Shown in pieces: positions 3,246 through 24,303 of a stretch of DNA of 24,307 bases. How positions within the stretch are numbered: position 1 is the stretch's first letter; each line of letters begins with the position of its first letter. The position numbers were made by a program, and so were the translations under genes. Below the pieces are notes generated by a model, which saw only the letters and a list, made by a program, of their open reading frames with translations, searched no databases and was not told the DNA's origin. Source of the DNA: a virus; the IMG/VR virus record IMGVR_UViG_3300021579_000040, positions 1 to 24,307 of that record. One strand, 5' to 3'.

Positions 3246-3285
3246 AGGCTCGCGGTAAAAACAGCGTGTATAATGAGACCCCTAT
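3246..3285 (+). promoter_or_regulatory. Promoter P1: TCGCG-N14-TATAATGAGACCCCTAT
   Basis: TCGCG at 3250-3254 and TATAAT at 3269-3274 are 14 bases apart, followed by GAGACCCCTAT. The same arrangement occurs at P2 (3668) and P3 (6530). The -10 is a consensus hexamer. The position where a sigma-70 -35 box would lie (3246-3251) has no TTGACA-like sequence. The start of transcription is expected near 3281, giving a short leader before the ATG at 3299. Confidence 0.75.
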
Positions 3286-3663: not shown

Positions 3664-3703
3664 TTCCTCGCGAAAAAAACAAGGACTATAATGAGACCCC
3701 TAT
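3664..3703 (+). promoter_or_regulatory. Promoter P2: TCGCG-N14-TATAATGAGACCCCTAT
   Basis: TCGCG at 3668-3672 and TATAAT at 3687-3692 have the same 14-base spacing as P1. The 17 bases TATAATGAGACCCCTAT are identical to P1. It lies between terminator T1 and the gene at 3718. Confidence 0.75.
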
Positions 3704-3955: not shown

Positions 3956-4147
3956 ATGCTATATTGGATTCAGGTTGCCTTGGTGTCTACCTTTCTATTT
4001 GGTTCTATCGTCCTTATTCACCATAAACTCCCTGAATTCAAGCAGCGTCGACGTGATAAGCGTATTATGAAGTTGGCGGAGGAATATCGGAATGGACTTT
4101 CGCAGTATTACACAAAAGTTCCAGCATCTCGTCATAGAAAACTCTAA
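3956..4147 (+). CDS. Small membrane-anchored basic protein
   Basis: 63 residues, with the RBS 'TTAGGAGAATTCG' directly after terminator T2. An N-terminal TM segment (residues 2-22) is followed by a strongly basic helix 'FKQRRRDKRIMKLAEEYRNG'. Its last 56 bases overlap the next gene in another frame, which suggests translational coupling. No known family is recognised. A small phage membrane protein with a cytoplasmic basic tail is the best description. Confidence 0.65.
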   Translation: MLYWIQVALVSTFLFGSIVLIHHKLPEFKQRRRDKRIMKLAEEYRNGLSQYYTKVPASRHRKL

Positions 4148-4832
4148 TACTACGCTGACTGCTATTGGCGTAGCTGGTGTGGTAGTCACTAGTTTCCTAA
4201 CTGCGAAAGGGACTTTCAAAGCTGCGGCTAAATTGCAGGAAGAAAACCTCGATGAACTAACTACTAAGGAAGTGGTCGAACTTGTTTGGACGGATTATGT
4301 ACCAGCCGTTTCCGCAGGTCTTGTCACTTGTGCTGCTATCATATTTGCTGATCGGATTGGTAGCAGAAGGGCTGCAGCACTTGCGGCAGCGTACACGATA
4401 ACTGATCGTGCATTTGTAGATTATCGCGAAAAGATCATATCTAAGATAGGTCCGAAGCAAGAAGAAGTGATTCGCTCTGAAATCGCACGAGATCGGATCG
4501 AGAGATCTAAAACAGAAGTTGTCATCTCTTCCGGAGGAGATGTTCTCTGTTATGACTCTTTCACTGGTCGAACTTTCATGAGCGATATGGAGACCCTACG
4601 TAAGGCTGAGAACCGAATTAATCACGATCTTCTCACCGATATGTACGCCTCTTTGTCTGACTTCTATGATTTGGTAGGACTTCCCCATACGTCATATTCT
4701 GACGAAGTGGGATGGAATGCTGATAGACTCCTTGAACTAAGATTCTCCGCAGTACTCTGCGATGGGGATCGACCTTGCATTAATATCGAATTCAACGTAA
4801 CCCCTGTTAAACATTTCAATCATCTCGGTTAA
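4092..4832 (+). CDS. DUF6353-like membrane protein, copy A
   Basis: 246 residues. The start at 4092 has GGAGGAATATCGG upstream. Two TM segments are visible (about residues 19-39 'TTLTAIGVAGVVVTSFLTA' and 70-90 'YVPAVSAGLVTCAAIIFAD'). A helical region 'AAYTITDRAFVDYREKI' and a C-terminal domain with 'LSDFYDLVGL' and 'VGWN' follow. The pattern fits the phage family DUF6353. A second member lies at 7709-8596 and shares the order TM, TM, 'AAYA..D..F..YR..', then 'L.(E/D).YDL.G' and 'VGW'. The function of the family is unknown. Membrane anchoring with a cytoplasmic domain is inferred. Confidence 0.75.
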   Translation: MDFRSITQKFQHLVIENSNTTLTAIGVAGVVVTSFLTAKGTFKAAAKLQEENLDELTTKEVVELVWTDYVPAVSAGLVTCAAIIFADRIGSRRAAALAAAYTITDRAFVDYREKIISKIGPKQEEVIRSEIARDRIERSKTEVVISSGGDVLCYDSFTGRTFMSDMETLRKAENRINHDLLTDMYASLSDFYDLVGLPHTSYSDEVGWNADRLLELRFSAVLCDGDRPCINIEFNVTPVKHFNHLG

Positions 4833-5783: not shown

Positions 5784-5813
5784 GCTTTATTCCGATATTG
5801 AGGGGATTGCGAG

Positions 5814-5856
5814 TTCGAGGGATAGGCGAGGGGTCTCCTATCTCTTGGACTTTTCC
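5814..5856 (+). terminator. Terminator-like hairpin after 5783
   Basis: TTCGAGGGATAGG (5814-5826) pairs with CCTATCTCTTGGA (5837-5849) over 13 positions, including three wobble pairs, with a 10-base loop CGAGGGGTCT. CTTTTCC follows. It lies in the 154-base gap 5784-5937. The rest of the gap shows no ORF, tRNA or clear promoter, apart from AT-rich sequence before the next RBS. Confidence 0.6.
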
Positions 5857-5937
5857 GGACGCTAATCTTAAACGACAGCCGCAGGGTCCCGAGCCAACAT
5901 GCGCCCTTAATATCATATATACCTAAGGAGTTTTATA

Positions 5938-6528: not shown

Positions 6529-6563
6529 ATCGCACGATTAACATGTGTTATAATGAGACCTCT
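6526..6563 (+). promoter_or_regulatory. Promoter P3: TCGCA-N14-TATAATGAGACCTCT
   Basis: TCGCA at 6530-6534 and TATAAT at 6549-6554 are spaced by 14 bases, as in P1 and P2. GAGACC(T)CT differs from the other two copies by one base. It precedes the single gene at 6576. Confidence 0.75.
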
Positions 6564-6575
6564 GAAAGGACTAAA

Positions 6576-7566: not shown

Positions 7567-7746
7567 ATGAACAACAGAGAACTTCTCAAAAATTATTATC
7601 GAGGCGTTAAATGGGCTCGTCAAGTAGACCGTATGTCTGACGCGCAAGTATACGCCGTTCTATGTAGACTGAGAAGTGCTACTAAACCCAATCGGGAGTT
7701 GAAAACAAATGAGTCTTGTAAATCTCAAGAATGCAGTAACAAGTAA
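7567..7746 (+). CDS. Small helical protein overlapping copy B
   Basis: 59 residues. The ATG at 7567 follows the previous stop by four bases, and the last 38 bases overlap the next gene. The segment 'NYYRGVKWARQVDRMSDAQV' with 'YAVLCRLRSA' resembles small phage proteins that carry a 'MSDAQ..A...RL' helix. No convincing RBS is present, so expression may depend on coupling to the upstream gene. The function is unknown. Confidence 0.55.
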   Translation: MNNRELLKNYYRGVKWARQVDRMSDAQVYAVLCRLRSATKPNRELKTNESCKSQECSNK

Positions 7747-8596
7747 GTTCGCACTGAATCTACTTAAGGTTCGGAAAGCCAGTCCGACGCTGATGTTTGT
7801 TGGTGGTGTAGTTGGCATTGGTGCTACCGTTTATCTGGCTTGCCGCGCTACTCTTCGGGTCGAAGAAACTATCGAGGAAGCCCGGACCGAGATCGAATTC
7901 GTCAAGACCACAGATTACGACGAAGATATCGATCGCACCAAGGATCTCTACTATGTCTATGGAAAGTCGTTCGCTTCTTTCGCCAAGTTGTTTGGGCCTC
8001 CGGTAATTCTTGGCGTTACTTCTATTGCAATGCTGACCGGTTCGCATATCATCCTGCACCGTCGTAATCTGGCTGTTACCGCAGCTTATGCGGCTCTCGA
8101 CAAGGGATTCAAGCAGTACCGTTCTCGGGTTTCTGAGAAGTATGGCGCTGTTGAGGACCAGACTCTTCGCCATGGTCTCGTGGATAAGACTATCGTTGAG
8201 GAAACTGAGACTGGACCTGTAACTCGGACCGTTAAGGTTCCCGGTAAGGATGCTCCGTCGATCTATGCTAAGATCTTCGACGAGAACAACCGAAACTGGA
8301 ATCGTCACCCGTCATACAACCAGATCTTCATTCAGTGCCAACAGAATTATGCTAACGACCTTCTTCGTGCCCGCGGGCATGTTACTCTGAATGAGGTATA
8401 TGATCTCCTTGGCATGGATCGTACCAAGGAAGGATTCGTTGTTGGGTGGGTTAATAATTCAATCGAGGGAGACGGCTACATCGACTTTGGCGTGTTCTCT
8501 GGCGATACTTTCATGGGTCAGCAGTTCGCTAATGGTGACGAGAAGTCAGTATGGTTGGACTTCAATGTTGACGGCGTTATCTACGACAAGATCTGA
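7709..8596 (+). CDS. DUF6353-like membrane protein, copy B
   Basis: 295 residues. Two TM segments (about residues 26-46 'PTLMFVGGVVGIGATVYLAC' and 93-115 'GPPVILGVTSIAMLTGSHII') flank an acidic segment 'VEETIEEARTEIEFV'. Then come 'AAYAALDKGFKQYR', a region 'NNRNWNRHPSYNQIFIQCQQ' and the C-terminal 'LNEVYDLLGMD...VGWV' block shared with copy A (4092-4832). Copy B is about 50 residues longer. The codon choice here is noticeably more GC-ending than in the upstream small genes. The function is unknown, but two paralogues kept in one genome argue for non-redundant membrane roles. Confidence 0.75.
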   Translation: MSLVNLKNAVTSKFALNLLKVRKASPTLMFVGGVVGIGATVYLACRATLRVEETIEEARTEIEFVKTTDYDEDIDRTKDLYYVYGKSFASFAKLFGPPVILGVTSIAMLTGSHIILHRRNLAVTAAYAALDKGFKQYRSRVSEKYGAVEDQTLRHGLVDKTIVEETETGPVTRTVKVPGKDAPSIYAKIFDENNRNWNRHPSYNQIFIQCQQNYANDLLRARGHVTLNEVYDLLGMDRTKEGFVVGWVNNSIEGDGYIDFGVFSGDTFMGQQFANGDEKSVWLDFNVDGVIYDKI

Positions 8597-9827: not shown

Positions 9828-12800
9828 ATGGATTTCTTTCGTGTTGCGATGAGAGAAATCGAAAAAGGACCTCATAAGGGGTCGTTTGAAGTTTACCCCG
9901 ATTTCGTAGTTCGGCGATCAAAAGACCTAATGGTTCGTGGGAAAGCATTCCACGCTATCTGGGATGAAGAACAAGGCCTCTGGTCCACAGATGAATACGA
10001 CGTCGTTCGTCTTGTGGATGAAGCTCTAGATAAGTTTGCTGCTGAACAAAAAGCTATCGGGGTTACTTGTAGGGTGAAACATCTGTCTTCCTTTAAGACA
10101 AATGGTTGGACGCAGTTCCGAAATTATGTAGGACGAGTATCAGATAATGGTTGTGAACTGGATGCATCTCTAACGTTTCAGAATTCAGTCATAACTAAGA
10201 ATGACCACGCCAGTCGTCGACTCCCGTATAAATTGGAGTCGGGGAGTTATGAAGCTTGGAATGAGCTTGTCAGTACTCTATATATCCCTGAAGAACGTGC
10301 AAAGATCGAATGGTGTATAGGTTCTATTGTTGCCGGAGACTCCAAGAGTATACAGAAGTTTGCTGTGTTTTATGGAAAACCGGGAACTGGTAAGTCTACC
10401 ATATTTGACATTATCTTTAAATTGTTTGATGGATACTGTGTTACTTTCGATGCGAAAGCTCTTGTTGGTACCAATAATAGTTTTGCTACAGAAGCCTTCC
10501 GGGGTAACCCCTTGGTTGCTATCGAGCATGATAGTGACTTGTCTAAGATCGAAGATAACAGTAAACTAAACTCAATCGTCTCCCACGAAGAGATGACGTT
10601 TAATGAGAAGTACAAACCCGCGTATACTTCTCGAAGTCGTGCTATGTTGTTCATTGGTACCAATAAACCCGTTAAGATCACGGATGCCAAAGCGGGAATC
10701 ATTAGACGTCTGCTGGATATTAATCCTAGTGGAAATATTATTCCTGCTAATCATTACTTTGAACTGATCTCTAGAATTAATTTCGAATTGGGTGCAATTG
10801 CGCAGCATTGTCTTGATGTGTATAGGACGATGGGCAAGAATTATTATAATGCGTATCGCCCACTCGAGATGATGTATCGCACTGACGTCTTCTTTAATTT
10901 TATAGAAGCTTATTACGATGTCTTTAAATCTCAGAATGGTGCTACACTTCAACAAGCGTATGACTTGTATAGGGAGTACTGCAAGGAATCTGGGATAGAT
11001 TGGGTTCTTCCGAAATACAAATTCCGGGATGAATTCAAGAACTACTTTACTTCGTTTGACGAACGTTGTACTATTGACGGTGAAGCTCGGCGAAACTACT
11101 ACAGTGGATTTTCTGCCGAACCTTATCGAAGAAAAGAAAAAGTCGAAGAAGTTGTTCCACCAGCATTTGAGATAGATCAAACGGTCTCTTTGCTAGATGC
11201 ATATTTGGCTGACTGCCCGGCTCAGTATGCTAAGGATGATGGTATACCAAAACAACGATGGTCTCAGGTCACAACTACTTTGGCTGACCTAGATACGACA
11301 AAACTGCACTATGTGAAAGTACCAGAAAACCATATCGTAATTGACTTCGATTTGAAGGAAGACGATGGAATTACAAAATCTCTTGCGAGAAATATCGAGG
11401 CGGCTGGTCTTTGGCCTACCACTTACGGAGAACGTAGTAAAAGCGGTTCGGGAATCCATCTCCATTACAATTACACCGGAGATGATGCCGGAGAACTCGC
11501 TTCGAATTACGCTCCAGGAATTGAAGTCAAAACATTTCGTGGAGGTGCTAGTCTCCGTCGACGAGTTAACGGAAGCAATAAAGTTCCAGTCGCCGCAATA
11601 ACTAGTGGCCTCCCGCTAAAGGAGAGCAAACCAGTGATCGAAGATGCGGTCATTAAATCGGAAAAGGGTCTTCGCGATCTTATAGATCGAAATCTTAGAA
11701 AAGAGATACACCCAGGTACCAAACCAAGTGTCGACTTTATTGCGAAGATCCTAGATGATGTATACGCCTCGGGTCTTGCCTATGACGTCACCGATCTTCG
11801 TTCCAAATTGATTGTGTTCGCAAATAACAGCACCAACCAATCTATGGCTGCGCTCAAAATTGTGCAGCACATGAAATTCAAATCTGAAGAAGCACCGACC
11901 AAGGAACCAGAAGTTGTAGAAGATCGTCTGGTGTTCTTTGACGTTGAGGTGTTCCCAAATCTATTTGTGATTTGTTGGAAGTACGAGGGTTCTTCAACGG
12001 TAATTCGTATGATCAACCCTACGGCCCAACAGGTCGAGGCGCTATTCAAATTTAAACTCGTAGGATTCAACAACCGTAGATACGATAACCATATTCTATG
12101 GGGAGCATATCTTGGTTACACTAACCTTATGCTTTACAAGCTCTCGAAACGGATCATCGACAACGATCCAGGGGCATTGTTCGGCAAAGCGTATGATTTG
12201 TCTTATACTGATATCTACGATTTTTCTAGCAAGAAGCAGAGCCTCAAGAAGTTCGAAATAGAACTTGGTATCGCGCATGTTGAACTCAACTTCCCTTGGG
12301 ATCAACCAGTCCCAGAGGAGAGTTGGGTTGAAGTAGCCGACTACTGTGCGAATGATGTTGTGGCTACAGATGCTGTATTTATGGCTCGTAAGGGCGACTG
12401 GGATGCTAGAAAGATCCTTGCTGAACTGAGCGGACTTTCTCCCAACGATACTACTCAGAAACACACTGCACAGATCATATTCGGTGACGATCGAAATCCC
12501 CAAAGATCATTCATATATACCGACTTGTCTAAGGAATTTGATGGGTACAATTATTCTCGTGGTACTTCTAACTATCGCGATGAGACCGTTGGCGAAGGGG
12601 GTTATGTCTATGCTGAACCCGGCATCTACTCGGACGTTGCCCTATTGGACGTTGCGAGCATGCATCCTACCTCCATCAAAGAGCTCAACGTATTTGGCGA
12701 ATATACAGATCGATTCTGGGAACTCGTCGAAGGCCGGTTGGCTGTTAAGCATAAGAAGTACGAGGAAGCCCGGACGTTACTTGGTGGTAAACTGTCGAAG

Positions 12801-13607
12801 TTTCTGGACCCTTCTAATCCAGACTTGGATGCGGTTGCCGGAGCTTTGGCGTATGCTCTCAAAATTGTCGTCAACATCGTCTACGGACTTACATCGGCTC
12901 GCTTCGACAATCCCTTCAGAGATCCTCGAAATAAAGACAATATCGTCGCCAAACGAGGTGCCCTCTTCATGATCGATCTGAAGCACGCTGTCCAAGAGCG
13001 GGGCTTCACGGTTGCTCATATTAAGACCGATTCTATCAAGATCCCGACTGCAACTCCCGAGATCATCCAGTTTGTGATGGATTTCGGAAAGCAGTATGGG
13101 TATACATTCGAACATGAGGCTACCTACTCTAAGTTCTGTCTCGTGAACGACGCTGTCTACATCGCGAATGATGGTACAGACTGGCATGCTGTAGGGGCAC
13201 AATTCCAGCATCCATACGTGTTCAAGACTCTTTTCAATGACGCTGATATAGAGTTCTCGGATCTTTGTGAGCCTCGCAGTGTTAAGGAAGGAGCTATGTA
13301 TCTGGACTTCGACAATATCCCTAAGGCGGATATCAATGAAGAAACCATTGGTCGCTGGAAGTTTGTGGGACGCACTGGCTTGTTCACTCCAGTCAAGTCG
13401 GGTTGCGGTGGAGGAACTCTCTATCGTGTTAAGGGCGACAAGACGTACGCGGTAACTGGAACCAAGGGTTATCTCTGGGCCGAATCACTGAATGTTAAAC
13501 ACGATGGTCTCGACTCGATTGATATGGATTACTTCGAGACGATGGCAGAAGAAGCCATAGCCACTATCGAAAAGTTTGGTTCATTTAAGGAATTTGTATA
13601 TGGATAA
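9828..13607 (+). CDS. Fused replicase: SF3 helicase, AEP primase, exonuclease and PolB
   Basis: 1259 residues, with the RBS 'GGAAGGGGTAGACTT'. Domains in order: (1) D5-like SF3 helicase, about 150-430, with Walker A GKPGTGKST at 183-191, Walker B-type 'VAIEHDSD' at 230-237 and a sensor 'FIGTNKP' at 275-281. (2) AEP-type primase-polymerase, about 450-600, with IDFDL (D506, D508), SGSGIHLHY (H544) and GIEV (E566). (3) DnaQ-like 3'-5' exonuclease, about 700-870, with DVE (D705, E707), 'GFNNRRYDNH' and 'YCANDV' (D843). (4) Family-B polymerase, about 920-1259, with motif A 'DVASMHPTSI' (D941), motif B K1012...N1016..YG and motif C 'KTDS' (D1068). The second, metal-binding Asp of the usual DTDS is kept, while the first is Lys. 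It would unwind, prime and copy phage DNA. Confidence 0.9.
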   Translation: MDFFRVAMREIEKGPHKGSFEVYPDFVVRRSKDLMVRGKAFHAIWDEEQGLWSTDEYDVVRLVDEALDKFAAEQKAIGVTCRVKHLSSFKTNGWTQFRNYVGRVSDNGCELDASLTFQNSVITKNDHASRRLPYKLESGSYEAWNELVSTLYIPEERAKIEWCIGSIVAGDSKSIQKFAVFYGKPGTGKSTIFDIIFKLFDGYCVTFDAKALVGTNNSFATEAFRGNPLVAIEHDSDLSKIEDNSKLNSIVSHEEMTFNEKYKPAYTSRSRAMLFIGTNKPVKITDAKAGIIRRLLDINPSGNIIPANHYFELISRINFELGAIAQHCLDVYRTMGKNYYNAYRPLEMMYRTDVFFNFIEAYYDVFKSQNGATLQQAYDLYREYCKESGIDWVLPKYKFRDEFKNYFTSFDERCTIDGEARRNYYSGFSAEPYRRKEKVEEVVPPAFEIDQTVSLLDAYLADCPAQYAKDDGIPKQRWSQVTTTLADLDTTKLHYVKVPENHIVIDFDLKEDDGITKSLARNIEAAGLWPTTYGERSKSGSGIHLHYNYTGDDAGELASNYAPGIEVKTFRGGASLRRRVNGSNKVPVAAITSGLPLKESKPVIEDAVIKSEKGLRDLIDRNLRKEIHPGTKPSVDFIAKILDDVYASGLAYDVTDLRSKLIVFANNSTNQSMAALKIVQHMKFKSEEAPTKEPEVVEDRLVFFDVEVFPNLFVICWKYEGSSTVIRMINPTAQQVEALFKFKLVGFNNRRYDNHILWGAYLGYTNLMLYKLSKRIIDNDPGALFGKAYDLSYTDIYDFSSKKQSLKKFEIELGIAHVELNFPWDQPVPEESWVEVADYCANDVVATDAVFMARKGDWDARKILAELSGLSPNDTTQKHTAQIIFGDDRNPQRSFIYTDLSKEFDGYNYSRGTSNYRDETVGEGGYVYAEPGIYSDVALLDVASMHPTSIKELNVFGEYTDRFWELVEGRLAVKHKKYEEARTLLGGKLSKFLDPSNPDLDAVAGALAYALKIVVNIVYGLTSARFDNPFRDPRNKDNIVAKRGALFMIDLKHAVQERGFTVAHIKTDSIKIPTATPEIIQFVMDFGKQYGYTFEHEATYSKFCLVNDAVYIANDGTDWHAVGAQFQHPYVFKTLFNDADIEFSDLCEPRSVKEGAMYLDFDNIPKADINEETIGRWKFVGRTGLFTPVKSGCGGGTLYRVKGDKTYAVTGTKGYLWAESLNVKHDGLDSIDMDYFETMAEEAIATIEKFGSFKEFVYG

Positions 13608-16889: not shown

Positions 16890-16947
16890 ACTGTTTCTAG
16901 CAATCTTTATGTTCGTGATGTTTGTAGGATTCATTCCTTACAGCTGA
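16876..16947 (+). CDS. Possible 23-residue hydrophobic peptide
   Basis: A GTG at 16876 opens 'MRKAKLFLAIFMFVMFVGFI' and ends PYS, a basic start followed by one TM-length stretch. It overlaps the previous gene by 14 bases and is closed by a hairpin. There is no good RBS, so it may be chance reading. Confidence 0.35.
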   Translation: MRKAKLFLAIFMFVMFVGFIPYS

Positions 16948-16948
16948 C

Positions 16949-16999
16949 GTTGTGGGGTCTCTAACCTGAGGCCCTGCAACAAAAACATGGTATTACTTT
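16949..16999 (+). terminator. Terminator-like hairpin
   Basis: GTTGTGGGGTCTC (16949-16961) pairs fully with GAGGCCCTGCAAC (16968-16980), allowing three G-T pairs, across a six-base loop. A run of T lies a little downstream at 16996-17002. It ends the run of small genes from 13706 onward. Confidence 0.65.
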
Positions 17000-19067: not shown

Positions 19068-19343
19068 ATGTCTGCTGACAATGTTAATAACCCATCCCAC
19101 TATCAAATGTACTATGGCCTTGAGGTTATTGATCTAACTGAACAGATGAACTTTAATCGTGGTAATGCCGTTAAGTATATCTGTCGGGCTGGTTTTAAAT
19201 CTGGCGGTAACGAGAAGGAAGATTTGCGGAAAGCTATTTGGTATTTGCGTAGGGAACTCGATAGGATTGAACGAACTAGGAATCTTATTGAGCCTATGAA
19301 GTTTATGGATACGGATCTCGGCGAGGAGATTATGGGTAGTTAA
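19068..19343 (+). CDS. DUF3310 family protein
   Basis: 91 residues (RBS 'TAGGAAGCGCC'). The consensus 'NPSHYQMYYGLEVIDLTEQM', 'FNRGNAVKYICRAGFKSGG' and 'KEDLRKAIWYLRRELDR' identifies DUF3310 (PF11753), often labelled 'SaV-like nucleotide kinase'. The kinase label is weakly founded because no Walker motif is present. The family is common in phage replication regions, and here it borders the repeat-rich noncoding segment. Confidence 0.9.
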   Translation: MSADNVNNPSHYQMYYGLEVIDLTEQMNFNRGNAVKYICRAGFKSGGNEKEDLRKAIWYLRRELDRIERTRNLIEPMKFMDTDLGEEIMGS

Positions 19344-19732
19344 AAGTATATAAAACATATCAATTTAGGACAATTTGTATCCCTTTGGGAGGAGTTGGGA
19401 CGGAAGGGATAAATCGGACATATCCCCTGTCGTTCTGTCGGACTTTTTTCTAAACCGCTTGAGCATTGTATAAATGGATATCATGTTTTCCTGTCGTTCT
19501 GTCACTTTACTCTATACCCCCTTACGCGCGAGAAAAATAGTATATAGGTATACAAAGTATGACAAATCGGACATATTTATAACCCAAAGTAATATGTTTA
19601 AAAACATGATATCGCATTGATAAAATATAGAGAAAAGTTGAAAAAAGTCCGACAGAACGACAACCCAATATATACCAATGGTCTATATTGTTCCAAATAA
19701 TTCCAAAATGTCCGAATTTATAAGGAGGATTA
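19344..19732 (+). other. AT-rich repeat region, candidate origin or control region
   Basis: This 389-base gap has no credible gene. It holds a perfect 23-bp inverted repeat (19428-19450 against 19640-19662). A shorter unit TGTCGTTCTGTC occurs at 19428 and 19492, and inverted at 19651. TCGGACAT occurs at 19414 and 19567, and inverted at 19708. GATATCATGTTTT at 19477-19489 is the inverse of AAAACATGATATC at 19601. The segment is very AT-rich between repeats and lies beside helicase, DUF3310 and nuclease genes. Origin function is inferred; regulatory function is an alternative. Confidence 0.5.
19428..19662. repeat. Perfect 23-bp inverted repeat flanking 189 bases
   Basis: The left arm (19428-19450) begins TGTCGTTCTGTCGGAC and ends in six T and a C. 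The right arm (19640-19662) is its exact reverse complement. A partial third copy (12 bases) lies inside at 19492-19503. Confidence 0.85.
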
Positions 19733-19942
19733 ATGCCGGGTAAAACTGGTATCCCAATAGTTAACATCACGACAGGTCAAAGATTTGAATCCACCAAAGA
19801 GGCAGCCGCTACTCTAGGTGTTCTGTCTTCAACCGTAACTAACCATCTACGAAGGCGCACTAAGACTTTGCTTGGCTGCAAGTATGAATACGAATACATG
19901 CTAACTGAGTCAGACACAGAAACCGATCCCCCACAAAGTTAG
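19733..19942 (+). CDS. NUMOD1-like DNA-binding protein
   Basis: 69 residues, with the RBS 'TATAAGGAGGATTA'. 'IPIVNITTGQRFESTKEAAA' with 'TLGVLSSTVTNHLRRRT' is a helix-turn-helix of the NUMOD1 type. In homing endonucleases this accompanies an HNH or GIY-YIG nuclease domain. Only the DNA-binding module is present here. It could be a remnant of a larger endonuclease, or a stand-alone regulator acting on the neighbouring repeats. Confidence 0.65.
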   Translation: MPGKTGIPIVNITTGQRFESTKEAAATLGVLSSTVTNHLRRRTKTLLGCKYEYEYMLTESDTETDPPQS

Positions 19943-20449: not shown

Positions 20450-20479
20450 TCGCAACGTGTGTAAAACTTGCGATATAAT
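20450..20479 (+). promoter_or_regulatory. Possible promoter P4 before the nuclease gene
   Basis: A consensus TATAAT (20474-20479) in 'CTTGCGATATAATAGAAGG' lies just after the second copy of the 16-bp repeat. A TCGCA is present at 20450, but with 19 rather than 14 bases of spacing, so P4 differs from P1-P3. No clear -35 box is visible. Confidence 0.4.
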
Positions 20480-20528
20480 AGAAGGAGTAGAAACAAGCCT
20501 TTTTGCTTTGTAGAAGGGAGAGCCGTTC

Positions 20529-20852
20529 ATGAAACTTGAAAGTAAATTTCAATCTGAACTAATTAAAGAACTTCATAGGCGGCTCCCCGGCTGCTTTGTA
20601 ATTAAGAACGATTCTAGTCACACACAAGGTATTCTAGATCTTTCGATTCTGTATGGACCTTGGTGGGCTATGCTCGAAGTAAAACGAAGTGCTAAGGCAA
20701 ATGTGCAGCCGAATCAACCATACTATGTTGATAAATTTAGTGGGATGGGTTTCGCAGCATTCATCTATCCCGAAAACATGACGGAGACCCTAGATGAACT
20801 TCAAACCTACTTCGGTGAACTTGAAAGGAACACACGCTTTCCTGACTCCTAG
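20529..20852 (+). CDS. VRR-NUC domain nuclease
   Basis: 107 residues, with RBS 'GAAGGGAGAGCCGTTC'. 'ESKFQSELIKELHRRLPGCF', then 'IKNDSSHTQGILDLSILY' and 'WAMLEVKRS..A....QPNQPYYVD' carry the PD-(D/E)XK pattern: GI.D (D40), ExK (E55, K57) and a final Q. This is the VRR-NUC type (PF08774), stand-alone in phages, with endonuclease or branched-DNA resolution activity. It overlaps the next gene by 59 bases in another frame. Confidence 0.8.
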   Translation: MKLESKFQSELIKELHRRLPGCFVIKNDSSHTQGILDLSILYGPWWAMLEVKRSAKANVQPNQPYYVDKFSGMGFAAFIYPENMTETLDELQTYFGELERNTRFPDS

Positions 20853-21354
20853 TTCTCCTGCATGGGTGAACTATACTGATGATAAGTTGGATCGTGTTTG
20901 GTACACTACCATGGCTTCGAAGCGTGGTACTGAACTACATGATTTTGCAAGTCAGGCTATTCGTCTCGGCGTACTCCTTCCCGATACAACCAAGACACTA
21001 AACGCCTATGTTAACGATTCCATTCGATTTGGTTTGACCCCCGAACAGCTACTGTTCTATTCACCAAATTGTTATGGACATGCTGACAGCATTGGTTTTA
21101 AACGAAACAAACTTAGAGTACATGATCTAAAGACTGGTGTGGCTGAAGCTTCACCAACTCAACTTGAAATCTACGCTGCTATTTTCTGTTTGGAATACAG
21201 ATTCCGTCCTATTGATATTGAGATAGAGCTTCGCATCTACCAGAATGATAGTGTTAAAGTTTTCGATCCAGGTCCTGACGCAATCTTTCATATTATGGAC
21301 CGAATCGTGTCATTTGACAAAAGGATCGAGAGTCTGAAAGCGGAGGTAGCATGA
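20794..21354 (+). CDS. RecB/Cas4-like PD-(D/E)XK nuclease
   Basis: 186 residues. Key residues fit the RecB-family nuclease core: H49 in 'GTELHDFA', D98 in 'GHADSIGF', D111 and K113 in 'VHDLKTG', and Q123...Y127 in 'QLEIYAA'. Such phage enzymes act in recombination, DNA end processing or host DNA degradation. There are no Cys clusters, so the Cas4-type iron-sulfur site is missing. The start at 20794 has an RBS 'ACGGAGACCCTAG'. The stop overlaps the RNA polymerase-like gene start (ATGA). Confidence 0.75.
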   Translation: MNFKPTSVNLKGTHAFLTPSSPAWVNYTDDKLDRVWYTTMASKRGTELHDFASQAIRLGVLLPDTTKTLNAYVNDSIRFGLTPEQLLFYSPNCYGHADSIGFKRNKLRVHDLKTGVAEASPTQLEIYAAIFCLEYRFRPIDIEIELRIYQNDSVKVFDPGPDAIFHIMDRIVSFDKRIESLKAEVA

Positions 21355-23999
21355 TCATCGAAGAAGAAAACTATCTGATGCATTATGGAATCCTCCGCCG
21401 TTCGGGTAGATACCCTTGGGGTTCTGGAGGAACTCAAGAAGAAAGAAACCGTACTTTTCTAGGCATGGTGGAAGACCTTCGCTCTAAAGGTATGAGCGAA
21501 ACTGAGATCGCTCGAGGTTTTGGAATCACAACTACCGAACTTCGTGCAGCACGATCTATGGCTGTCACAGCAAAACGCCAAAGTGATATTGCTATGGCGC
21601 AAAGGCTTAAAGATAAAGGATACTCTAACGTTGCCATTGGCGAACGTATGAGTATTAACGAGTCGTCGGTTCGTGCTCTTCTGGCTCCTGGGCAGGCAGC
21701 TAAGGCTGATGTGCTGGGCGCGGTTACTGGTATGCTCAAAGACCAAGTAGCCTCTAAGGGTATGATCGATATCGGAACTGGCGTTGAACGTCATGTCGGC
21801 GTCAGTTCCACTAAATTGGCAACTGCTGTAGCAATGCTTAAAGAAGAGGGCTATACTGTCCACTATCTTAAAGTAGAACAACTAGGTACAGGTCAGCAAA
21901 CTACAATTAAAGTTCTCGCGGGACCTAATGTTAAATATGGAGAAGTGTATCGAGGTCGCGATAATATTAGACAGATTACAGAATTCTCCAATGATGGGGG
22001 TCGTACATTCCTTGGGATTGATAGCCCTCTGTCAGTCAATTCTAAGCGGGTCGGAGTACGATACGCAGAAGACGGTGGTACCTCCGCCGATGGAGTAATT
22101 TATGTTCGCCCAGGCGTTAAAGATCTGTCTTTAGGAAATGCAAGATATGCGCAGGTTCGTATTGCTGTAGATGATTCGCATTATTTGAAAGGTATGGCCG
22201 TCTACAAAGATGACCTACCTCCAGGTGTGGATCTAGTATTCAATACTAATAAATCTGATACAGGTAATAAACTTGACGCATTCAAGAAAATGAAAGATGA
22301 TCCTGATAACCCGTTTGGCGCAGTTGTCAGGCAGATTTACAGCATTGATTCTAAAACGGGAAAGAAGAAACTTGCTTCAGCCTGCAATATTGTAAACGAA
22401 GAAGGCGATTGGGAAAAGTGGAGTAAGACACTCTCATCACAGATGTTGTCTAAACAAGCTCCTACTCTTGCTAGAGAGCAATTGGCAATAACGCTCGAGC
22501 GTAAAAAGCGTGAGCTAGATGAGATTATGAGTCTGTCTAATCCATCTGTTCGTAAGAAGTTGCTTGAGTCATATTCGGATGATGTTGATTCAGCAGCTGT
22601 ACATCTTAAAGCAGCCGCTCTTCCAAGACAAGGTTCTCATGTTATCCTTCCTGTCAATAGTATGAAGGAAACTGAGATCTATGCGCCTAACTATCGTGAT
22701 GGAGAAAGAGTAGCTCTTATCAGGTATCCTCATGGCGGTATCTTCGAGATCCCTGAATTGACTGTTAATAATCGTCAACCTGAAGCTAAGAAACTTCTGG
22801 GTAGAGCTAGAGATGCTGTTGGCATAAATAGTAAAGTGGCAGAACGCTTGTCTGGCGCAGACTTTGATGGCGATACCGTGCTTGTTATTCCAAACAACCA
22901 TGGAAAAGTAAAGACCGAACCTGCTTTGCAAGGGCTGATTAACTTCGATCCTAAATCTGCTTATCCTGGCTATGCTGGGATGAAAAAGATGAGTGCAAGA
23001 ACTAAAGCTTTTGAGATGGGTGATGTTAGCAATCTAATTACTGACATGACTATTAGAGGCGCTACTCAAACAGAAATTGCTAGAGCTGTGCGTCATTCAA
23101 TGGTTGTTATCGATGCTGAAAAACATGGTCTAAACTGGAAACAGTCGGCGATCGATAATGGTATCCCACAGTTGAAAGCCAAGTATCAAGGCAGTGCTAA
23201 AGCAGGAGCAAGCACGCTAATTTCTAGGGCTTCATCACGTAAAGATGTAAATGAAAGAAAGGCTAGGTCGGCACAAGAAGGCGGACCTATCGATTTAAAG
23301 ACAGGCGCAAAAGTTTATACCCCTACTGGTAATAGTTGGGTAGATGCCAAGGGCAAGACTGTATTTAAGACTCAGCGTAGTACTAAACTAGCAGAAGCAT
23401 CTGACGCACATAGTTTGTCATCAGGTACACCAATTGAACGTATTTATGCTGATCATTCTAACAGTCTTAAAGCATTGGCAAACAAAGCGCGACTTGCTAT
23501 GGTTAGAACAAATTTAACCCCCTACTCTCCAACAGCAAGAACTGTCTATGCAAAACAAGTCGCCTCTCTAAATGCAAAACTTAATATCGCCCTTAGAAAC
23601 GCGCCTCTTGAAAGACAAGCGCAGATCCTGGCTAATTCTATAGTCACCCAGAAAAGGGCAGCCAATCCTGATCTAGAACCTTCTGAAATCAAGAAACTAA
23701 AAGCACAAGCTCTTAAAGAAGCCCGTTTAAGAACAGGCGCCCACAAAGAACGAGTCGATATATCAAACGATGAGTGGGCTGCTATACAAGCAGGTGCTAT
23801 TAGTTCTTCTAAATTGCAGTCTATTCTAGCTAATGCTGATATAGATCAAATAAAGAAGTTGGCTACACCTAAACAAGAACTACTAATGACTAGTCTTATG
23901 CGCCAACGTGCTACTAACATGGCAACTAATGGTTATACTCAATCTGAAATAGCAGATGCTTTAGGTGTATCCGTATCTACATTAAAGACTGCTCTATAA
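21351..23999 (+). CDS. Putative single-subunit DFDGD RNA polymerase with HTH modules
   Basis: 882 residues (RBS 'GCGGAGGTAGC'). N-terminal 'MHYGILRRSGRYPWGSG' (10-26) is a recurrent phage motif. Two helix-turn-helix units follow (about 40-69 and 83-112). The core holds 'ALIRYP' (R458, P460), then 'GADFDGDTVLVIP' with DFDGD at 504-508, the triple-Asp catalytic signature of the beta-prime double-psi barrel. 'EMGDVSNLITD' (555-565) and 'HSMVVIDAEKHG' (582-593) resemble the helical block after the DbDGD motif in YonO/QDE-1-type two-barrel polymerases. The C-terminus ends in another HTH (860-880). RNA synthesis from DNA is inferred. A structural or DNA-binding role cannot be excluded. Confidence 0.7.
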   Translation: MIIEEENYLMHYGILRRSGRYPWGSGGTQEERNRTFLGMVEDLRSKGMSETEIARGFGITTTELRAARSMAVTAKRQSDIAMAQRLKDKGYSNVAIGERMSINESSVRALLAPGQAAKADVLGAVTGMLKDQVASKGMIDIGTGVERHVGVSSTKLATAVAMLKEEGYTVHYLKVEQLGTGQQTTIKVLAGPNVKYGEVYRGRDNIRQITEFSNDGGRTFLGIDSPLSVNSKRVGVRYAEDGGTSADGVIYVRPGVKDLSLGNARYAQVRIAVDDSHYLKGMAVYKDDLPPGVDLVFNTNKSDTGNKLDAFKKMKDDPDNPFGAVVRQIYSIDSKTGKKKLASACNIVNEEGDWEKWSKTLSSQMLSKQAPTLAREQLAITLERKKRELDEIMSLSNPSVRKKLLESYSDDVDSAAVHLKAAALPRQGSHVILPVNSMKETEIYAPNYRDGERVALIRYPHGGIFEIPELTVNNRQPEAKKLLGRARDAVGINSKVAERLSGADFDGDTVLVIPNNHGKVKTEPALQGLINFDPKSAYPGYAGMKKMSARTKAFEMGDVSNLITDMTIRGATQTEIARAVRHSMVVIDAEKHGLNWKQSAIDNGIPQLKAKYQGSAKAGASTLISRASSRKDVNERKARSAQEGGPIDLKTGAKVYTPTGNSWVDAKGKTVFKTQRSTKLAEASDAHSLSSGTPIERIYADHSNSLKALANKARLAMVRTNLTPYSPTARTVYAKQVASLNAKLNIALRNAPLERQAQILANSIVTQKRAANPDLEPSEIKKLKAQALKEARLRTGAHKERVDISNDEWAAIQAGAISSSKLQSILANADIDQIKKLATPKQELLMTSLMRQRATNMATNGYTQSEIADALGVSVSTLKTAL

Positions 24000-24011: not shown

Positions 24012-24257
24012 ATGATTGAGTACATGCTTACTACAGTAGACAATCCTTACAGTCCTTTTGAGCAGTTTGATGATTGGTTTGCATATGATACAACAAAAGG
24101 ATACCACTCCCTACCCTACCTAGCTAGGGTATGCAAGCAATCAAATGAATTAAGTGAAATGGATCAAATAATTGAAAATAATCGTGCAATTTTAGAAATT
24201 GTGCAATTCAATCTTTTAGGTATTTATAAAAAGGTTGAGCAAGAAGTTAGTTTATAA
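24012..24257 (+). CDS. Small conserved phage protein
   Basis: 81 residues, with RBS 'AAGGAGGCCTA'. 'EYMLTTVDNPYSPFEQFDDW' with 'YDTTKGYHSLPYLARV' and 'IVQFNLLGIYKKV' matches a family I recall between the RNA polymerase-like gene and the terminase genes in related phages. The function is unknown. Its position suggests the genome continues into the packaging module after this window. Confidence 0.75.
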   Translation: MIEYMLTTVDNPYSPFEQFDDWFAYDTTKGYHSLPYLARVCKQSNELSEMDQIIENNRAILEIVQFNLLGIYKKVEQEVSL

Positions 24258-24269
24258 TTTAATAGGTCT

Positions 24270-24303
24270 AGGGGGAGGGTCTCGAATAATGAGACCCCCT
24301 CCT
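24270..24303 (+). terminator. Terminator-like hairpin at window end
   Basis: GGGTCTC (24277-24283) pairs with GAGACCC (24291-24297) around a 7-base loop GAATAAT, and the stem extends outward by about five more pairs after one mismatch. No T-run is visible before the window ends, so termination is likely but unproven. Confidence 0.5.

Follow-up and report, generated by a model that had tools for sequence, protein, structure and literature searches.

Organization of the polymerase locus

The record analysed was a virus fragment of 24,307 bases, hereafter called the window. The genes and parts of genes assigned at its right end, all on the plus strand, were as follows:

20529..20852 (+), VRR-Nuc-like endonuclease, first gene of the polymerase operon
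20794..21354 (+), RecB/Cas4-like exonuclease (PHROG 3953), overlapping the polymerase start
21351..23999 (+), predicted single-chain two-barrel RNA polymerase, 882 aa (PHROG 4291); homology, model, conservation
21381..21428 (+), N-terminal tag HYGILRRSGRYPWGSG, residues 11–26; conservation, model
21435..21755 (+), N-terminal helical region with HTH-like units, residues 29–135; PHROG matches, model
22068..22385 (+), putative first (beta-like) barrel region, residues 240–345, with invariant R270, K280, K301 and K312
22632..22910 (+), putative second (beta'-like) barrel region, residues 428–520, with R458-x-P460-H461
22860..22874 (+), DFDGD, residues 504–508, invariant putative metal-binding Asp triad
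22995..23126 (+), two helices after the barrel, residues 549–592 (MGDVSN..HSMVVIDAEKH), likely bridge-helix region
23892..23993 (+), C-terminal HTH, residues 848–881; Pfam matches
24012..24257 (+), 81-aa partner protein (PHROG 4303, function label unknown); adjacency, homology

In complete relatives, the polymerase and partner genes were found to close the linear genome, preceded by a helicase gene and by the usually adjacent VRR-Nuc and exonuclease genes, with the terminase region at the left end. The window stops 50 bases past the partner gene, and its end is probably near the genome end. These phages encode their own DNA polymerase/primase fusion (PHROG 4210 together with primase-type helicase domains).

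The polymerase ORF contains no internal stops. A first-pass annotation had claimed a phage-encoded RNA polymerase of the YonO/QDE-1-like class at this position, and the ORF and the motifs on which this was based were shown to be real: DFDGD was confirmed at residues 504–508, and the conserved block downstream of it as MGDVSN (556–561) and HSMVVIDAEK (582–591). The Arg motif described upstream of DFDGD was present, but it has the form R-x-P and not R..P (R458-Y-P460-H461, 46 residues before D504), the literal R..P match falling elsewhere, at 749. HTH units that had been proposed to flank the core were found at both ends of the protein; N-terminal helices span residues 29–136, with PHROG HTH matches at 31–111, and residues 848–881 matched the Pfam families HTH_23 (2e-7) and sigma-70 region 4 (2e-6).

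An alignment of 50 members with identity down to 45% showed D504, D506, D508, R458, P460 and H461 to be invariant, and likewise K280, K301, K312, D588 and K591. The DxDxD site formed by D504/D506/D508 was kept in 50/50 members, and K280 and K301 are two invariant Lys of the first barrel region. The top-conserved 16-mer of the whole protein sits in residues 549–592.

Polymerase family and predicted fold

The protein matched the PHROG 4291 profile over its full length (residues 3–881 against profile positions 6–904 of 909; 1373 bits, E = 0). Homologues were present in 250 of 50,697 phage records and in 135 further stretches from bacterial and archaeal genome assemblies. Most of the homologues in phage records are annotated as 'helix-turn-helix DNA binding', and those in RefSeq as 'RNA-dependent RNA polymerase'. 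At the protein level, the polymerase is thus a further member of a known and already labelled kind; the PHROG 4291/RefSeq 'RNA-dependent RNA polymerase' proteins of Arthrobacter, Gordonia, Streptomyces and Lactococcus phages belong to the same family over the full length.

A search of solved structures by sequence, including profiles, returned no polymerase, and one was found by fold comparison alone. An AlphaFold model built from 45 relatives (mean pLDDT 77.7, pTM 0.57) had QDE-1 as its top structure match (E 1e-9), followed by Thermus phage RNA polymerases and plant RDR2. Residues 226–723 of the model, which include both putative barrels (their limits being set from the QDE-1 alignment range and conservation), aligned with QDE-1 681–1198 with Z 15.8 over 378 residues at an rmsd of 4.7, so that the two-barrel fold predicted in the first-pass annotation was borne out, as far as model alignment can show, in the comparison with QDE-1 that it had proposed. 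Comparison with plant RDR2 by VIA-align gave Z 15.9 over 427 residues at an rmsd of 5.2, and the Thermus phage enzymes P74-26 gp62 and P23-45 gp64 gave Z 13.1 and 12.6, respectively. The DFDGD half alone aligned with the largest subunits of cellular RNA polymerases with Z of about 10.6. QDE-1 and the eukaryotic RNA-silencing polymerases (PF05183) represent the closest solved fold (340–430 aligned residues, Z 14–16); they show about 12–15% identity to the phage polymerase and differ from it in the N-terminal half and in their biology. The score of the polymerase against the Pfam RdRP family PF05183 itself was 13.0 bits, which is below the curated cut-off of 23.8; the family was detected in 34 of the 50 members (best E 7e-5).

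The proposed class assignment was supported for the two-barrel fold; by sequence the polymerase is distant from YonO, the match being at profile level only. In tblastn searches, no pairwise similarity between the polymerase and YonO was found and the two families shared no matches, the YonO query leading to 36 other records. Alignment by hhalign against a profile of six YonO members covered residues 436–569 (127 columns, E 2e-4, probability 46%), including R-x-P-H, DFDGD and GxxSN; this six-member profile was required, as hhalign against a single YonO or a single gp64 sequence was uninformative. Like the polymerase, YonO of Bacillus phage SPbeta is a phage-encoded single chain of similar length (839 aa), and its family alignment has the motifs in the order seen here, R-x-P-H, G-x-D-F-D-G-D, GxxSN and IDxAK. 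Unlike at the polymerase loci, neither the HYG tag nor a PHROG 4303 neighbour was seen at the YonO locus. The protein is thus assigned to the two-barrel polymerases, with membership of the YonO family proper unproven.

Two single-chain two-barrel RNA polymerases are also described for Thermus phage P23-45, the non-virion gp64 and the virion gp96, likewise with promoter motifs of their own at early genes (PMC10770324). These motifs differ from the one described below, gp64 has only 616 aa, and gp96 forms a fusion with the tape measure protein; a constant small partner is not described in the accessible part of that source (PMC10770324).

Partner protein and N-terminal tag

At each of the 157 loci whose sequence runs on for more than 83 bases past the polymerase gene, the partner gene was the next one; in the four loci without it, the sequence stops at most 83 bases downstream of the polymerase. 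Both proteins matched 250 phage records, with identical genus counts among the matches listed, a co-occurrence that was judged by counts and not record by record. The partner was modelled with confidence (pLDDT 95.8) as a strand, three helices and a strand, and comparison of this model with the PDB gave no match (best Foldseek E 0.86, best Z 3.7). We infer that the partner may be a dedicated subunit, a specificity factor or a chaperone.

The N-terminal tag is the third best conserved 16-mer of the polymerase (mean identity 0.90), lies between poorly conserved flanks and falls in a region predicted to be unstructured in the AlphaFold model. A related tag, H[YH]G[VI]xG[MQ][KR]WG, was detected in other ORFs in 54 of the 59 loci that extend 6 kb or more downstream; these ORFs invariably share the strand of the polymerase, and most lie close to the terminase. 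By PHROG match, one tagged protein is a virion structural protein and another an acetyltransferase. The 'structural protein' orf7 of phage 1706 contains two divergent tags. With the N-terminal 33 residues of the polymerase as query, nothing convincing was found beyond the polymerase. The resemblance to the tags of these late-region proteins suggests that the polymerase may be packaged in the virion, which we consider possible but somewhat doubtful; packaging would explain how early promoters could be read at a time when the polymerase gene has yet to be expressed. The residues common to the tags are few, namely H-Y-G and W-G. The phage 1706 polymerase itself has no structural annotation.

Promoter-like motif

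A motif of the form TCGCR-N6-ACA-N5-TATAAT, first seen as a repeated element in intergenic gaps of three Streptomyces phages, was found to precede early genes and the polymerase operon in phages across host phyla. The copies in the window were:

3250..3284 (+), promoter-like motif, TCGCGGTAAAAACAGCGTG-TATAAT-GAGACCCCTA (element at 3269)
3668..3702 (+), promoter-like motif, TCGCGAAAAAAACAAGGAC-TATAAT-GAGACCCCTA (element at 3687)
6530..6564 (+), promoter-like motif, TCGCACGATTAACATGTGT-TATAAT-GAGACCTCTG (element at 6549)
20455..20490 (+), weaker motif copy, TATAAT-AGAAGGAG, score 19.3 of 24

The weak copy lies at the position that the candidate promoter of this operon takes in relatives. The sequence TATAATGAGACCCCTA was present in more than 119 IMG/VR stretches with up to 10 copies each, compared to 3 for a shuffled 16-mer. 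In 216 non-redundant sites with unselected flanks, TCGC was conserved at −19 to −16 (1.7–1.96 bits) and ACA at −8 to −6 (1.4–1.9 bits), whereas positions −23 to −20, the start of a would-be sigma-70 −35 box, carried about 0.1 bit or less. The start codon lay about 30 bases downstream of the motif, and no contig of this set had the motif on both strands. A sigma-70 scan did not call the motif sites.

The polymerase was present on 31 of the 40 long motif contigs. The other nine also lacked the neighbouring exonuclease, as would be expected of fragments. A thirty-second polymerase match on these contigs was discounted (E 4e-5, 66 residues). As a 36-mer, the motif matched 187 of the 50,697 phage records in 1005 places, and the counts for Gordonia (55), Streptomyces (54) and Rhodococcus (4) were identical to those of the polymerase. 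A single Staphylococcus match of the 36-mer (E 5) looks like chance. The core was also found in six copies in Arthrobacter phage Mudcat and, as TATAGT-AGAAAG, in 11 copies on the plus strand and none on the minus strand of Lactococcus phage 1706. The −10 hexamer is TATAGT, a poor fit to sigma-A, in each of the 11 phage 1706 copies, and a perfect TATAAT in those of the actinophages. Both Mudcat and phage 1706 keep the core mostly without GAGACCCC, which was rejected as a promoter part and is an element separate from the promoter core.

The motif weights were derived from the same phages that were later scanned, and the test consisted in the minus-strand and shifted-spacing controls and not in the scores. 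Among the polymerase loci of bacterial genomes, 53 high-scoring sites were found on the polymerase strand and one on the opposite strand. Exact spacing gave 75 sites, compared to 2–15 with TCGCR shifted and 12 on the minus strand; shifting ACA discriminated less (7–32 sites). A site was located 0.6–1.4 kb upstream of the polymerase, i.e., before the operon, in 108 of 147 loci, where shifted spacing gave 8–46 and the minus strand 11. In 42 of the 62 operon sites of bacterial-genome loci found by the upstream elements alone, the −10 hexamer was TTTTAT or TGTTAT; these elements are weak by themselves, 58 of 152 loci matching on the minus strand by chance, and weight was placed on spacing together with the hexamer. 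Host sigma-A requires an A at position 2 of the −10 hexamer. Since TTTTAT and TGTTAT do not have it, a phage factor is likely to act at the motif, with the polymerase as the obvious candidate.

The motif is likely to be a promoter read by the polymerase. That the two occur together is partly due to the shared ancestry of these phages. In the three Streptomyces phages, no motif family preceded the terminase genes, and a YonO-like role in late transcription was not supported; the evidence points to early genes and the polymerase's own operon.

Proposed mechanism and alternative explanations

The 882-aa protein is almost certainly an RNA polymerase, and it very likely carries out DNA-templated transcription of phage genes. 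We consider it likely that the best explanation is a phage transcription module in which a two-barrel polymerase and its partner read promoters of their own. The polymerase would be a single-chain, DNA-dependent enzyme of YonO/QDE-1-like fold, extended by HTH units at either end and acting together with the 81-aa partner. It would initiate at a dedicated promoter family (TCGCR, N6, ACA, N5 and a −10-like hexamer, followed by a purine-rich or GAGACCCC start region) located upstream of early genes and of the nuclease-exonuclease-polymerase-partner operon. We infer that promoters are read by the polymerase, with the partner or with its own HTHs, and that RNA is synthesized on DNA. The polymerase would thereby drive early genes and amplify itself, making transcription partly independent of the host. 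If production of the polymerase depends on its own promoter, another source has to provide the first molecules, which could be leaky host transcription or the virion. The window's own operon copy of the motif is weak, which counts against this explanation.

The main competing explanation, which is unlikely but still deserves serious weight, is that the motif is a host sigma-A promoter switched on by a phage activator bound to TCGC/ACA near −30 to −20, similar to T4 MotA, and that the polymerase serves other, e.g., late, genes from unseen promoters. This would agree with the actinophage TATAAT, which is the sigma-A −10 consensus, with the location of the polymerase gene where early and late regions meet once the genome is circularised, and with YonO, which serves the late genes of SPbeta and whose promoter sequence is not known (PMC5467207). 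However, most operon sites in bacterial-genome loci lack the position-2 A, the phage 1706 copies are uniformly TATAGT, and the architecture is kept across host phyla in phages that have the polymerase. A role in copying RNA or in priming phage DNA replication instead of making mRNA is very improbable. The closest folds, QDE-1 and RDR2, the database name 'RNA-dependent RNA polymerase' and the operon shared with recombination nucleases would fit such a role, but a DNA polymerase/primase fusion is already encoded by these phages, the polymerase has DNA-binding HTH units at both ends and is linked to a promoter-like DNA motif, and YonO and P23-45 gp64, which have the same fold, are DNA-dependent (PMC5467207, PMC10770324). 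Least probable, and hardly credible, is that the protein acts solely as a DNA-binding HTH regulator, the annotation given in most SEA-PHAGES records, and that its polymerase core is dead: the catalytic residues are all invariant in the 50 sequences, and the HTHs make up about 15% of the protein.

Returning to the transcription module, the constant partner and a start signal that is common to phages of very different bacteria and should be poorly read by host enzymes make it probable that these phages transcribe some of their genes with machinery of their own, which may be carried in the particle. If so, a large group of phages of Arthrobacter, Gordonia, Streptomyces, Lactococcus and gut Clostridia would transcribe early genes partly without the host RNA polymerase, which the prevailing label 'HTH DNA-binding protein' masks. 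Among known relatives of cellular RNA polymerase, the YonO-like enzymes are some of the simplest; how YonO finds promoters was stated as an open question (PMC5467207). A common family (250 sequenced phage records, many of them from phages with laboratory hosts) with a constant partner and a clear candidate promoter makes promoter recognition by a minimal two-barrel polymerase directly testable. In the open-access literature, nothing was found on the motif, the tag, the promoters of the polymerase, the partner link or the RNA element described below. The partner linkage, the promoter family, the tag relation and the RNA element are thus new here, PHROG 4291 being known as a label only.

Structured RNA element

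One further conserved feature was found in the window:

5803..5905 (+), conserved structured RNA element, with a loop AGGGGTCTC complementary to the GAGACCCCT leader

The element (CCGGA...TTAAACGACAGCC) was detected in 38 non-redundant sequences, among which the 3′ stem took 27 different forms, and no Rfam match was found anywhere in the window. RNAalifold on a MAFFT alignment gave a weak consensus and was replaced by an alignment-free test of stem pairing, in which the 3′ stems paired with their own 5′ arm at 6.71 of 7 positions, compared to at most 6.08 for shuffled partners in 500 trials. The hairpin region contains GGGGTCTC, which is complementary to the leader that follows the −10 hexamer, in 26 of the 38 sequences, and GAGACCCC in none; at minimum energy, GGGGTCTC was mostly unpaired in only 8 of the 26. 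Antisense control and a 6S-like template are offered as ideas only. An autonomous system that would combine a virion-carried polymerase (HYG...WGSG tag), the 81-aa subunit, cross-phyla promoters and such an antisense or 6S-like RNA regulator is, taken as a whole, unlikely. The polymerase was found on 14 of the 15 checked contigs with the RNA element, and on 1 of 12 contigs that had the 14-mer but were outside the RNA-element list.

Other features noted in the window and in related phages

Features of the window
4092-4832 and 7709-8596, a pair of paralogues in the early region (DUF6353/PHROG 2152, function unknown)
5803-5905, conserved hairpin RNA element with a covarying stem and the loop AGGGGTCTC
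9828-13607, 1259-aa fusion protein (PHROG 4210) combining a DNA polymerase with a primase-type helicase region (DUF5906/D5-like)
19343-19740, AT-rich gap of 400 bases containing direct and inverted copies of TGTCGTTCTGTC
24271-24302, inverted repeat GGGGGAGGGTCTC-GAATAAT-GAGACCCCCTCC at the right end, immediately 3' of the partner gene that follows the RNA polymerase gene

The loop of the hairpin RNA element is the complement of GAGACCCCT, the leader behind the early promoters. Nothing in Rfam matched this element, which is possibly an antisense RNA or a 6S-like RNA. The leader element was also found in reverse complement (GTGGGGTCTC, 16945-16965), within a gap from which the promoter core was absent.

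The 1259-aa fusion was common to the related phages with the RNA polymerase. The AT-rich gap is a candidate replication origin, and Streptomyces phages showed a comparable AT-rich gap at the same position. The inverted repeat may represent a linear genome end or a terminator.

In the related phages, diverse late-region proteins encoded close to terminase carried the tag H[YH]G[VI]xG[MQ][KR]WG, N-terminally or, in some proteins, internally and repeated. Examples among these are L104:14833-15390, L162:2224-2601, L172:2269-3171, L298:2820-3827, and L299:2501-3889 (locus:coordinates). The tag, perhaps a virion cargo signal, was carried by, among others, an acetyltransferase fusion and a protein annotated as structural.
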